Assembly (NCBI GenBank): GCA_014378495.1
Contig: JACMNP010000132.1
Span: 1 to 35,541, forward strand
Source of the DNA: Methylotenera sp.
Lineage (GTDB): Bacteria; Pseudomonadota; Gammaproteobacteria; Burkholderiales; Methylophilaceae
Length of the DNA stretch: 35,541 bases
Direction: 5' to 3'
Below are positions 14,599-20,660 of this stretch, piece by piece; the stretch's first letter is position 1, and the number at the start of each line of letters is the position of its first letter. A program made the translations under genes and the position numbers. The notes under the pieces were generated by a model. It saw nothing but the letters and a program-made list of their open reading frames with translations. It was not told the origin of the DNA and ran no database searches.

Positions 14599-15177
14599 TC
14601 AAGGGTGAATCGCAGTAACCTCCCAAGTCCGCCCTTCATCTTGAGAGACAGCCTGCATATTTGCGGTAAAGTCACTTTCACGTTGTTGCCAAGTCACCGT
14701 AATATTTTGATTATCAAGCCTAAATCTTGGATTGATTGGCGAGTATTTTGAGAGTCTTTTAGGCAGGCTAGAAACCCAAGACTCACCATCCATACGTGCA
14801 TAAAACAAGCCGCTGAGTTTTTCTGGCTCTTTATTTTGCACCATGGATTCACTCCATAATACATGCCATCCCCATTGGCCACCTTGCTGTAAAGCAATTG
14901 GGGTAGTGCATTTTGAGATTGCTTCATCATTACTAAAAGTGATCTGTTTTATATCTAATGGAGTCTGTTTCACATTCGCCATTACTAGTTCCAATTTATT
15001 ATTGGGCTGCTTTTGTGACCATAACCGATAGATTTCACCTTTGTCATTGGTGCTTTCTATTGTGATAGATTGTCCAGATAGACAAGATTGCACTGGTATA
15101 TTAGATTGCTTATGTTCATCAGCTACAGCAACTGCGTTGCCAATCAATATTAAAAAAAATACTAAAATAAGTTTCAT
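14599..15177 (-). CDS. exported protein, possible sialidase/BNR-like
   Basis: Signal peptide; C-terminal SQDEGRTWEVTAI resembles an Asp-box (SxDxGxTW); start overlaps the stop of the PepSY gene. Confidence 0.65.
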   Translation of the reverse strand: MKLILVFFLILIGNAVAVADEHKQSNIPVQSCLSGQSITIESTNDKGEIYRLWSQKQPNNKLELVMANVKQTPLDIKQITFSNDEAISKCTTPIALQQGGQWGWHVLWSESMVQNKEPEKLSGLFYARMDGESWVSSLPKRLSKYSPINPRFRLDNQNITVTWQQRESDFTANMQAVSQDEGRTWEVTAIHP

Positions 15178-16712
15178 GATGGTTTAATTGTAACGCCTAA
15201 AAAATTAGCCGCCTTAGGTAGCCGCGGTAAAATCCAATATTCAAATGCTAATATCATAAACAACGACAACCCTAAAAATGGCAATAATATAGCAAAGGTA
15301 AACACTAGAGTTAAGATGCCAAATGGCGTACGAACATCATTTCTAGGCGCCTTGATTGGTGCACCCAGTGTATTAGTAGACACATCCATTCCGCGCCTTC
15401 TACGCCACCACATTACTACTCCGCTTACTGAAACAGTGATTAAACTTAAGGCTGTTAATAACCATAATAGTTGATTCAGCCAGCCAAATAACTGGCCTTC
15501 ATGTATCGAAATACCGAAACCTATAATGCGATCAAGTAAGCCCCGGTCAGCAAAGTTTTTTCTAGACAAGATATTGCCTGTGTTGGCATCTAACTCTAAG
15601 TTCACGCGCAATGGCCTATTTTGTGCATCAGACTTTGCCGTCCAATTGGGCGATCTTTTTAATGGCGCTGCGACTAAAACAGGGTAAGCCAAATGTAATG
15701 CTTTCACATTCTCAACCATTTGATTTAAAGATTTATTTTCTGCCATATTATCTAGCGCATTAAAATTAGCCGTTGGTACTTGATGAGCATGTTTGTGTTG
15801 CATCGCTTGATGTTGTGCATGCTCATCTTCAGTCATCGCTATTGGTGCAATCTTAACTTTAGCAGGCTTGATTAATTGCCTTGCTTCAAGTTCAGAAGCC
15901 CTACCAATAGTCCAATCTTGCGGTGTTTTTACTTGCATCGTGCTGTTCACATTACGCAATTCTTTTAAAATTCCGCCCCAAGATTTTGCCCATGGCAAGC
16001 CAGAAATGAGTAGAAATAGGGTTAAGAACGATACCCAAAACCCAATCACCGCATGCAAATCTCGCCAAAATAACCTAGACTTTACTTGTTGACCATTTCT
16101 GATAACAATACTAGAGGCTAAACGCGGATATAGGATGCCTGCCAAGCTATTTAAATTGCGTGGCCACCATAAAAATAAGCCCGTTATAATCATTACGATT
16201 GCCCATGAAGCGGCTAGCTCTACAATATTAGAACCACGATCTCCCAACAATAATTGGCCATGTAGATGATGAATATAAGTCATCAATTTATCATCTTCAC
16301 GTTCTATTTTTAAAACTTGTAAGTTAAATGGATTTACAAATACGCGATATAAATCCCCGTTTTTCACTAGCATTATTTGAGCAGCAGCTTGTGCTGTCTG
16401 AGGAAGTTGGTAAGCATTAAAATCTGAATCCGCTACCGCGGCAAGCGCCGCTAACACTTGCAGCTTGGCCGATTTAGCATTTTCTGTCGCACTTAAATTA
16501 CTAATGCCTACTTTACCAGCCACTACATTAGTAACAGGTAAATTATTGTAATCGCTATTTTGAAAAGCCTCATATTGCGGTTTAAATAGATAAATTGCTC
16601 CTGTAATAGATAACAAAATAATAAAGGGTATGCAGAACAACCCTGCATAAAAATGCCAGCGCCATACGGTGTTGTAACTCAATAAGGCAGGTTTATTCAG
16701 ATAATTTTTCAC
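15174..16712 (-). CDS. PepSY-associated TM helix domain protein (iron-uptake/reductase-like)
   Basis: WRWHFYAGLFCIPFIILLSITGAIYLFKPQYE, HHLHGQLLLGDRGSNIVELAASWAIVMIITGLFLWWPR, RDLHAVIGFWVSFLTLFLLISGLPW. Confidence 0.93.
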   Translation of the reverse strand: MKNYLNKPALLSYNTVWRWHFYAGLFCIPFIILLSITGAIYLFKPQYEAFQNSDYNNLPVTNVVAGKVGISNLSATENAKSAKLQVLAALAAVADSDFNAYQLPQTAQAAAQIMLVKNGDLYRVFVNPFNLQVLKIEREDDKLMTYIHHLHGQLLLGDRGSNIVELAASWAIVMIITGLFLWWPRNLNSLAGILYPRLASSIVIRNGQQVKSRLFWRDLHAVIGFWVSFLTLFLLISGLPWAKSWGGILKELRNVNSTMQVKTPQDWTIGRASELEARQLIKPAKVKIAPIAMTEDEHAQHQAMQHKHAHQVPTANFNALDNMAENKSLNQMVENVKALHLAYPVLVAAPLKRSPNWTAKSDAQNRPLRVNLELDANTGNILSRKNFADRGLLDRIIGFGISIHEGQLFGWLNQLLWLLTALSLITVSVSGVVMWWRRRRGMDVSTNTLGAPIKAPRNDVRTPFGILTLVFTFAILLPFLGLSLFMILAFEYWILPRLPKAANFLGVTIKPS

Positions 16713-16736
16713 AATTAAGGCTTTCCTGATAATCGA

Positions 16737-19065
16737 CTAATAATCAAACTTTAGCTGTAAATAGCCCGTGCGCTGTGGGTAGGGATGAAACGCATAGGCC
16801 TTATAGTTATTTAAATTATCTATACCAATACTCGCGGTAAATTTTTCGGCAAATTTATAGTTAGCTTTCACATCCATAATAAAAAACTTACTCACGCCAC
16901 CAAAAGTATCAGGATTGATGTCGCTATTATCTAAAGTATTGTATTGTCGACCGCTGTAGCGCGCGCCTAAGCTGTAAGTCAAATGGTTACCTTGATGATA
17001 AGTTGCTACGGCTTTAAAGCATACTTTTTGGAATACGTAATGGCTTGTTGCCTTCTAAGGCCGGATTAGCTTCGTTACGTAAAATTTCAGCTTCTGTAAG
17101 CGTTAAGCTACCCAATAAATCTAGGCCGTTTATCAGTAGATCTTGCCATTCTGTCGATAATTCAATACCTCTTGTACGCACATGATCTACATTTTGAATA
17201 AAAGTACATTGCGTACCAATACAACTAGGGCCTGTAGGAATAGTTTGTGAAACTAAGGCATCAAACTTATTTTCAGTGAACAAACTCGCCCGCACTAAAC
17301 CATTGGCAAAACGTCTTTCAGCGGTAAATTCACCAGAAATGACTTCTTCAGTTTTTAAGTCAGGGTTATTTTGTATTAATGAAGTGCCGCTAGTTACTTG
17401 CTGATAAAGCTCGCTCACGGTTGGAAAGCGGTAAGCTTGACTAACGGAAGCGCTGAAGCCCCAAGCAGGTAATGGCTCAAAGCTAATTGATATTTTTGGT
17501 GAAAATTTATTATCTGATTTATCGTAATATGCACTAGTTTGAAAACCAGCGCTAGTTGTCGTTTGGTTGCGTCCATCAGTTGCCTCCCAATGCTCTTGGC
17601 GTGCGCCTAATGTAAGCGCCCACTTAGGGTCAAGTTGCCATTTATCTTGTAAATAAATCGCTTGGGTCGCCGTTTCACCGCGAGAAGTACTAAACAAAGT
17701 GTCCTTGTCACCAACAGACCAATCAGCAGTATTGTTAGTGTCACTACGCAACTTGTAACCGTCAATATGGTAGCCAAAATCAATCGTATGTTGGTCACCA
17801 TGATTATCTACTGGTCGTAATGTTCCGCGCGCGTCAAATACTGTCCATCCTGTACCAGCTTGATCAACCACCCTACCAACTTTATTCAAGTAAGGGTTAC
17901 CAGCCGCCACAGTACCGCTGGATGGCACATTAGAAGTACTATTTTTATCTTTTTGATAATCATAGTTAGAAAACGTAAGTTGCCAATCAAACAGTCCTTT
18001 AGTATTAGACTTTAAATCCAGCGCTTGCATAATATGGGTCGCTTCTGCCTCACCTGGATTATTAAAGCCGCCCACATCATAATTCTTACCGTTGAACGTT
18101 ACACGGCCATTAAAAACGGCATTGCCAGCTGCATCTTTAATGTAGCTATCAACATCGCTATGGCTGTCTAAATTCCATATGCCAAAGGTATAAGCTATTT
18201 TAACGGTAGGTGCAATGTCATAAGCCGCTTTAAATTTCAAGTTAAGCTGTTCGCTATGGTCAATTCCCGTAGCACCAAAAACTACTCTATTTTTTCCTGA
18301 AGGATCTTTATCTAAATAAGCACCAGTGACAGCTGTTCTGCTCCCAGCAGTAGTGTTGGTAGCAATGCTGTTTGCAAACTGCATAGGCTGACTAGTAGTA
18401 TCTAAGTTATCTGCAGTGAATAAAAAGCTTAAATCATTAATTTTATTACCCACTGAAAAAGTCTCATGATGCCCATTGAATGTTTTATCAGTACCGTATA
18501 ACTCAAATTTTTGTATAAAGGCTTGGGTGCTTGCGTGCGCTTCAAATTTAGTCGGCATGCGGGTATTTAAATTAATGACACCACCCATAGAGTTACCTGC
18601 GTATAAGGCAGAAAAAGGTCCATATAAAATATTCACACTTTCAATTTCTTTAGGGCTTACCAAACCCCAGCGTGGGGCAAAGCCAAATGAATTACCAAGC
18701 AAATTTGATAGCAAAACACCATCGGCATATAGCAATGTTTGTGCACTAGAAAGCGTGCCAGTAGTGCGTGTAGCAATAGGGCCATTGCGATCACCAATAT
18801 AGCGTTCGCGAACTTGAAAGCTCGGCAAATATTTCAAAGTTTGCTGAGAAGTAGTTGCGTTTATGGTGTCTTCGATCTGTTGCTTGGTATAGGTTTCAAC
18901 TGCAGCAGGATGGTTAATAATACAACTGTCTATTGGCGCAGTCACCATTACTTCATCTAAATTGATCGCCTCTTTCTCTTCTGCAAATGCTACATTTGAA
19001 AAGTTAAATGCGAGCGCACTCAGCACGCATAAATAAATATGCGTGTAATTAAAAGCTGTATTCAT
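16737..19065 (-). pseudogene. TonB-dependent receptor, apparently frameshifted near the 3' end
   Basis: ORF 17014..19065 has signal peptide, TonB box-like NLDEVMVTAP, plug and barrel but stops early (GNKPLRIPKSML*). The next frame continues into 16737..16982 with a receptor C-terminus ending YLQLKFDY. Removing one T from the TTTTT run at 17025-17029 restores one continuous frame. Confidence 0.8.
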
Positions 19066-19089
19066 GTTAAAACTCCAAAAATCGTCGCC

Positions 19090-19114
19090 TTCAAGTCAAA
19101 TAATTTGACTTGAA
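19090..19114. repeat. 25-bp perfect palindrome upstream of the TonB receptor
   Basis: TTCAAGTCAAAT-A-ATTTGACTTGAA, 12-bp arms and 1-bp centre. Confidence 0.9.
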
Positions 19115-19156
19115 ATCGAATGTTTAATATAAAAGGGGTTATTAAAAATGCGTCAT

Positions 19157-20125
19157 TTAAAACGCAGTATTAATGCCCAAAGCCACTGACCAATCAGCAG
19201 TCAGCTGTGCTCCATTTACATATTGATAGATGGGTTTTTGTATAAAACCATACACTTGCGTCGTTGATGCAACGCGATAACTAAAACCTGGACTTAGGTT
19301 GATTGATTGACCACCAGAATCTGCAGGCTCAGCATTTGCGCCATTGTCTTTAGACTTATGTTGCAAATTCACTTGTAATAAAAGATTCAACTCTGGCGTA
19401 GCGCTGTAACTCATGCCAAAGTCAGCACTCAGTTTTCGGCCTGGCTCAAAGTCATCACGTTCATGCACGCTTTGTTGCCACATGCCTTGCACAAACCAAG
19501 CAGTATTACCTATACGGTAATTGTAATAAGCGCCTAATAAGGTATCTACGCTGCCACTACCCGGCTGCAAGGTACGCTCTGCGTCTTCTTCACTATTACT
19601 TTTGTGAATGCTACCCGTAGGTAATTTTATGCCAAATCTTAAACCAGCATTACTGTCTTTATCTGAATAAAAACGATAGCGTGCAATTGCTTGCACATCA
19701 CCCAAACCAGAAAAATTCCACTTTTCAACTTCTGGGTCGGTACCACCTGCCCCATTATCTTCATTAAAAATGTGTTGATGCGCACGGCTTACAAGCGGCA
19801 CTTTGAAGGTGATGCCCCAAGTAGGATTAATATTCCAATCCAAGGTTGTAAGTATATTGCGATTGATGGTGCGCACTTCATCATGCTCATCAACCTCGCC
19901 AGCGAGGTCAGCTTTGTGTGTACCATGACGCAACTGGTCTAAATCAATATATTCTGCACGTACATCTAAGCGAATACCTGGCTTAGAGGTAACGCCTTGT
20001 ACGTCCCAATCGGTACTTAAATTACAAAATGCACCGCCGCAGCTGGCGACTGCTGAGTAGCTAGTCAATAAACCAGCAGAGATTAGACTTGCGAACAAGC
20101 CCGTTTTTTTGAAAGATTTCAACAT
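19157..20125 (-). CDS. outer-membrane transporter-like protein with N-terminal CGGAFC motif
   Basis: Signal peptide MLKSFKKTGLFASLISAGLLTSYSAVA then SCGGAFCNLSTDWD; many amphipathic beta strands and terminal Phe. ORF extends to 20143; Met at 20125 is the likelier start. Confidence 0.75.
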   Translation of the reverse strand: MLKSFKKTGLFASLISAGLLTSYSAVASCGGAFCNLSTDWDVQGVTSKPGIRLDVRAEYIDLDQLRHGTHKADLAGEVDEHDEVRTINRNILTTLDWNINPTWGITFKVPLVSRAHQHIFNEDNGAGGTDPEVEKWNFSGLGDVQAIARYRFYSDKDSNAGLRFGIKLPTGSIHKSNSEEDAERTLQPGSGSVDTLLGAYYNYRIGNTAWFVQGMWQQSVHERDDFEPGRKLSADFGMSYSATPELNLLLQVNLQHKSKDNGANAEPADSGGQSINLSPGFSYRVASTTQVYGFIQKPIYQYVNGAQLTADWSVALGINTAF

Positions 20126-20219
20126 GGTTGATTCCCTAATCATGTAGCCACAACGAAGCTGTGACCTTAATAAAATAGAGTTTTAACGCCAACACTGGCG
20201 GCGAAAAAACAATTAAAAT

Positions 20220-20660
20220 TTATTCGATTTCGAGAGGTGGGGCGCGACTAAGATGGTCGCTTAGAAGTAGTGCAGTTAAAACAGGGGCTAGATAATAAGT
20301 TTGTAGGTAAAACTTACCTGTATCAAGCAATACGATACTTGTGTTATCTACCGCAGGAAAAGCCGCTGCAGTGGCATGATTTAAGCAAAAAGGGCAATGC
20401 TCAAAATGCATAGCGGTCGGCATAGAGTTAGGGTTAGATTCGCGTGAAGCTGTACCAGCGTTAATATCAGCTAAAGCATTATTCAGTGTAAAGCCTGCAG
20501 CAATACGCTTTGTGCCTTGTAAAGTACAAATCTCTTGCCAAACATTTTTAGGGCCCGTTTTATTTGCAAAAGCATGGGAAAGTGTAGGCGCTAGCGATGC
20601 GAACACCATTACCATCAAAATGGCTTTGCTTACTAATAATCGGAGGCGTTTAGAAAACAT
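20220..20660 (-). CDS. DUF2946-like protein
   Basis: N-terminal hydrophobic segment, HFEHCPFCLNH motif and downstream TM segment as in DUF2946. Confidence 0.8.
   Translation of the reverse strand: MFSKRLRLLVSKAILMVMVFASLAPTLSHAFANKTGPKNVWQEICTLQGTKRIAAGFTLNNALADINAGTASRESNPNSMPTAMHFEHCPFCLNHATAAAFPAVDNTSIVLLDTGKFYLQTYYLAPVLTALLLSDHLSRAPPLEIE

Follow-up and report, generated by a model that had tools for sequence, protein, structure and literature searches.

How bacteria take copper up through the outer membrane when it is scarce is poorly understood, and few TonB-dependent receptors have been established for it. In Bordetella pertussis, CruR, a protein of the DUF2946 family, switches a TonB-receptor/PepSY operon, cruR-crtA(bfrG)-crpH, via ribosome stalling and Rho (PMC9426467, PMC12914433, PMC13038864). 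Here we describe five genes at positions 14599-20660 (minus strand) of a 35,541-nucleotide stretch from Methylotenera sp. (GCA_014378495.1, contig JACMNP010000132.1; hereafter the window, contig C10 of a 79%-complete assembly), which probably form a CruR-controlled copper-acquisition operon related to that of B. pertussis, with two extra envelope proteins.

The CXXC and RAPP motifs of B. pertussis CruR are 45 residues apart, and a spacing of 45 +/- 2 holds for the published family; the copper response depends on CXXC and expression on RAPP, and copper leads to Rho-dependent termination in the gap behind cruR (PMC9426467). Ribosome arrest at RAPP was demonstrated in vitro (PMC12992588). The receptor CrtA has a conserved ligand site with Y130, W265, E337, Q356, H358 and R395, and the PepSY_TM protein CrpH, whose histidines are required, supports heme-copper oxidases (PMC13038864). 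In another copper receptor, OprC, an HxM in the barrel and a CxxxM in the plug bind copper together (PMC8610252).

Gene set and CruR-like leader

Five genes on the minus strand were found in the transcription order DUF2946, CGGAFC protein, TonB receptor, PepSY_TM protein and small exported protein, as a sequence-only reading of this DNA had described them. Pfam confirmed DUF2946, the TonB plug and barrel, and PepSY_TM, while the CGGAFC and last proteins gave sub-threshold matches only. The tight packing reported earlier was also present: the PepSY gene follows the last stop of the receptor, counted from its second piece (see below), by 24 nt and overlaps the last gene by 4 nt. Promoter and terminator scans of the region gave sites, hairpins included, that were no commoner than in shuffled sequences.

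The first gene (20220..20660, minus strand) encodes a protein of 146 aa with an N-terminal export signal, which matched PF11162 at 57.7 bits (Pfam cut-off 23.7) and was the one DUF2946 gene found in this assembly. Its HCPFC motif, already pointed out from the sequence, holds the CXXC copper-sensing motif of CruR as CPFC (aa 89-92; 20385..20396, minus strand). The ribosome-arrest motif RAPP occupies aa 139-142 (20235..20246, minus strand), with 46 residues between the two motifs and four residues after RAPP. Both CXXC cysteines are invariant in 38 of 38 aligned leaders, as is the PP of the arrest motif, which occurs as RAPP, RGPP or QAPP. Several Methylotenera leaders (L091-L094, L096, L097) end in QAPP in place of RAPP. 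The gap between the leader and the CGGAFC gene is 76 nt, or 94 nt if the latter starts at the ATG at 20125, versus 162 nt after the leader in B. pertussis.

Base composition shows a C>G bubble, a candidate Rho-utilisation region, over the 3' portion of cruR and the following gap (20157..20368, minus strand), the stretch with the longest uninterrupted series of C>G windows; the bubble of B. pertussis likewise extends from within the leader into the gap. Mean C-G over cruR and the gap was +5.5 points on the sense strand, against -2.0 to -9.4 for 15 other minus-strand genes of the window. When synonymous codons were redrawn with the protein held fixed, the 3' half of the window's cruR was still C-rich (P=0.007).

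The motif spacing, the first position and the C>G bubble make it most likely that the DUF2946 gene is the operon's cis-acting copper switch, CruR, and not an uptake component. The first reading knew of no clear function for the DUF2946 protein, but one had been published (PMC9426467).

Receptor, PepSY_TM protein and BNR half-propeller

The receptor is encoded in two frames: the first 683 aa (17014..19065, minus strand; PF07715 and PF00593), and the C-terminal ~80 residues (16737..16982, minus strand; C-terminus of PF00593), which are 81% identical to the end of an intact receptor in L171. Both pieces match the receptor family, and relatives have intact receptors. The receptor architecture first read from the sequence was borne out by the plug and barrel domains; the reading as one open frame was not, a frameshift having been overlooked. 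Receptor homologues passing E 1e-40 were found in 25 of the 61 related genomes searched, the genome of the window included, and were examined together with their surroundings.

Residues H344-I345-M346 (18028..18036, minus strand) align with the HxM copper half-site of OprC-type receptors; the histidine is conserved in 13 of 15 sequences and the methionine in 14 of 15. In a profile-profile alignment, four receptors that had been picked out with TIGR01778, two of which score below or near its cut-off, have their HxM at the position of H344-x-M346. The barrel-wall HxM is thus at the same aligned place as in OprC, while the CxxxM of the plug is absent from this receptor, and its main frame was unmatched by TIGR01778. 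As in the B. pertussis operon, the DUF2946 leader with CXXC and RAPP comes first and PepSY_TM follows the receptor, whereas the ligand residues of CrtA were not recognised here: judged from the published residues without an alignment to CrtA, no Q-x-H at matching spacing occurs in the receptor family, and none of the compared receptors shows the constellation. A Protein Data Bank search returned no close match for the receptor, the PepSY protein or the CGGAFC protein, and the CrtA entries 9RVQ and 9RVX were not among the matches.

The PepSY_TM protein (512 aa; 15174..16712, minus strand), predicted from the sequence and confirmed by PF03929 at 217.8 bits, is a candidate heme-dependent periplasmic reductase that resembles CrpH. 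Five histidines are invariant in its family (H20, H151, H220, H298 and H404). The His/Met-rich loop noticed earlier, EDEHAQHQAMQHKHAHQ (15777..15830, minus strand), is present, and this stretch is His- or Met-rich in the five PepSY_TM homologues compared. A weak alignment (E 0.19) matches three stretches of the protein to FoxB.

The last gene (14599..15177, minus strand) encodes a small exported half-propeller, a short form of the BNR protein family. The protein is homologous to the C-terminal half of BNR proteins of ~400 aa, its structure model is half of a sialidase/GH43-type propeller, and short forms were found in eight relatives. The motifs CECC and CPHHG are present in most of the long proteins and absent from the short form; in the protein encoded at L028:6879-8087 and in other ~400-aa BNR proteins located by cbb3 genes, they suggest a putative metal site.

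In seven genomes of the genus (L172, L173, L175, L178-L181) the receptor gene is followed by a ~400-aa BNR protein gene and faces ccoO-ccoP-ccoG-fixH-DsbD_2, with a divergent RegB/RegA-like pair on its other side. PepSY_TM follows the receptor in L174, L183, L187 and L191, to which L187 adds TonB-ExbB-ExbD, and CruR precedes the receptor, directly or with the CGGAFC gene between them, in L182, L189 and, by tblastn, L171. In the relative G017 (L195:5636-12000), CruR is the first gene of a set that continues with a CcoI-type copper ATPase and ccoNOP, and there the leader may control the cbb3 oxidase genes themselves. The genome of the window has an aa3-type candidate and a cbb3-like oxidase. A link to heme-copper oxidases is also known for the B. 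pertussis operon, and these enzymes are most likely what the operon serves.

Two further observations were made in these regions. A palindrome, CATATTGTCGCGCGGCAATATG, lies at ~5808-5829 of L187 between the divergent RegB/RegA-like pair and the receptor, and part of it recurs in L176; it is possibly a RegA site. The CcoN/CcoO pair of the cbb3-like oxidase in the window's own genome (L201:735-3060) scored 277 bits against the 583-bit NCBIfam cut-off and is thus divergent; its neighbour we take to be a Crp/Fnr-type regulator.

A barrel protein family behind the leader

The second gene (19157..20143, minus strand; 328 aa, or shorter if the ATG at 20125 is the start) encodes a predicted outer-membrane barrel protein with the CGGAFC motif noted from the sequence (20024..20041, minus strand), which contributes two invariant cysteines near the mature N-terminus. 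Residues C35 and C40 are invariant in 39 aligned homologues, as are R62, R120, H122 and D149. The nearest named relatives of the protein are from Methylotenera. When named bacterial genomes were scanned with an alignment of 10 members, 80 barrel loci were obtained, and all 80 proteins carry C-x4-C close to the mature N-terminus, in the forms CGGAFC, CGSAFC, CASCGC, CSSCGC or similar ones. The first cysteine of CGGAFC was considered as a lipoprotein cysteine and set aside by eye, most members being without a lipobox. In L100:8004-9096, on the same contig as G022:C18, the barrel gene is split in two frames.

In 37 of the 80 loci, from many genera, the gene immediately upstream of the barrel gene, in the same orientation, is a Pfam-confirmed CruR; Methylotenera, Collimonas, Undibacterium, Ramlibacter, Duganella, Andreprevotia and Pseudomonas are among the genera with a barrel gene behind the leader. 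The leader model was built in part from the barrel loci themselves, with Pfam as an independent check, and PF11162 matched all 38 candidate leaders of barrel loci, that of the window included. In 150 genomes sampled evenly from the order, separate searches with the barrel profile and PF11162 found 36 barrel genes that were near-complete and 89 genes for DUF2946. Eight of the barrel genes (that of the window included) had DUF2946 no more than 600 nt upstream, where random placement would give 0.0017. The gene set recurs in relatives beyond chance, and the lack of a conserved neighbourhood that would have refuted the first reading was not seen.

Of 122 genes scanned downstream of barrel homologues, ~33 encode thioredoxin-fold proteins of the TlpA/ResA type (many on the opposite strand) and four encode SCO1, and in Undibacterium jejuense the barrel gene is followed by MbnP. 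At that locus (L120:6804-11062) two tandem CruR genes precede the barrel gene, and MbnP is followed by a further gene, which we take to be MbnH.

Published contents of CruR operons include TonB receptors, PepSY, Sco, PCuAC, YcnI, CopC, MbnPH and AhpC_TSA. The main texts on these operons, to which the comparison extended, name no such barrel family. Its place behind a copper-sensing leader makes the barrel family a candidate for a new component in the copper supply of bacteria. We suggest tentatively, and with less than even confidence, that CGGAFC/CASCGC barrels may constitute an unrecognised class of TonB-independent outer-membrane copper channels or docking proteins, which would be switched by CruR and would supply cuproenzymes together with TlpA-type thioredoxins and BNR proteins.

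Probable copper acquisition and its alternatives

Copper acquisition is supported by the CruR leader, the HxM half-site and the neighbouring cbb3, SCO1, TlpA and MbnP genes in relatives. Metal uptake with copper as the metal, which had been put forward from the sequence, is thus well supported, if indirectly; what changes is the part of the DUF2946 gene, most likely that of a switch. Based on this reading, the CruR switch and the receptor/PepSY scheme belong to a known type of system, and two parts, the barrel and BNR proteins, are uncharacterised. The B. pertussis operon differs in these: here the leader and the receptor have a barrel gene between them, and the set ends with the gene of a BNR half-propeller.

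Several observations weigh against this reading. Only 13 of 38 loci reached P<0.05 in the synonymous-codon control, and the amino-acid sequence therefore accounts for part of the bubble. About half of the barrel loci are without CruR directly upstream, and co-occurrence of barrel and DUF2946 at genome level was not enriched in the 150 genomes (P=0.55), so that the association is one of physical adjacency only. Genes 2 and 3 are 91 nt apart, and this spacer contains a terminator-like hairpin (19166-19149) as well as a perfect 25-nt palindrome, TTCAAGTCAAATTATTTGACTTGAA (19090..19114, assigned to neither strand), for which reason a single transcript across these genes is not proven. The palindrome was rejected as a conserved operator, being absent before the receptors of relatives. 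The receptor is split by a frameshift, with a stop at 17014, unlike that of B. pertussis; in this single assembly the frameshift may be either a mutation or an assembly error. Finally, the response to copper is reversed in CutF, a protein of the DUF2946 family, and the family may include sensors of other metals (PMC9973294), so that for this leader the copper signal and the direction of the response are what we infer.

The frameshift is also the starting point for a different account, in which the receptor part is degenerating in this lineage and CruR together with the barrel (and the BNR protein) forms the working unit, the barrel alone acting as the outer-membrane copper component. Close relatives (L092-L095) keep CruR and the barrel and are without receptor and PepSY, L097 retains fragments only, and most CruR-barrel loci elsewhere have no adjoining receptor. 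Because of these losses and the frameshift in the window, loss of the receptor part in this lineage is suggested, unless the frameshift is an assembly error. However, the window has an intact PepSY gene, G050 carries intact versions of CruR, barrel, receptor and BNR, and in L100 it is the barrel gene itself that is broken. We regard decay as a possible but rather doubtful account of this locus. That CruR stays with the barrel when the receptor is lost argues for the barrel as a regulated target in its own right.

A more general role for the barrel, as a porin or a channel for hydrophobic compounds that merely shares the leader, was considered on account of its fold. An AlphaFold2 model (pLDDT 86.4) was confidently all-beta, a single closed barrel of ~12 strands, and a Foldseek search with it retrieved FapF (5o65; E 7e-12) and a COG4313 channel (4rl8; E 9e-12), neither of which is a copper protein. 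The template modelling score was about 0.6-0.7 with a weak profile match (E about 4e-4), while identity was 12-14% and the gene neighbours are different; the match is a resemblance of fold and not of function. We know of no report of an N-terminal C-x4-C in these channels. The two invariant N-terminal cysteines and the repeated adjacency to CruR, TlpA-type, SCO1 and MbnP genes make a general channel unlikely.

Iron uptake, of a ferric siderophore or heme, with the PepSY_TM protein as a ferrisiderophore reductase and the leader incidental, would agree with the closest curated models and solved structures for the receptor, which are those of receptors for heme and siderophores and all score far below cut-off, and with the reduction of ferrioxamine by FoxB-type PepSY_TM proteins (PMC13038864). 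It is quite improbable given the CruR leader, the HxM half-site and the cbb3, SCO1 and MbnP neighbours, and no siderophore biosynthesis genes were found beside the operon. Least probable is a detoxification operon in which copper raises downstream expression, as CutF of Rhodobacter capsulatus cutFOG does for the multicopper oxidase that follows it: CutF, like this leader, is an exported DUF2946-family protein with a C-terminal proline-rich motif that precedes copper genes (PMC9973294), but its stall motif and gap are different, whereas the gene described here has a canonical RAPP, CruR spacing and a C>G bubble, and an importer-type receptor and PepSY_TM in place of a multicopper oxidase or efflux system downstream.

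In a CruR-controlled copper-acquisition operon, the ribosome would stall at RAPP of nascent CruR when copper is scarce and would shield the C-rich mRNA from Rho, allowing transcription of the downstream genes. Copper bound to CPFC of nascent CruR would relieve the arrest, upon which Rho would end transcription within the gap, ahead of the barrel gene; the gene set is thus probably switched off at plentiful copper. The TonB receptor and, as we infer, the CGGAFC barrel would carry copper across the outer membrane, the PepSY_TM protein would probably reduce it in the periplasm with electrons passed via hemes, and the imported copper would feed the assembly of heme-copper oxidases. The BNR protein is proposed to be a periplasmic partner.

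A likely role can now be assigned to the DUF2946 gene at this locus. The barrel family that recurs behind the copper-sensing leader is a specific candidate for copper supply, which is genetically testable in culturable species, and the BNR protein found beside cbb3 genes is a second candidate.

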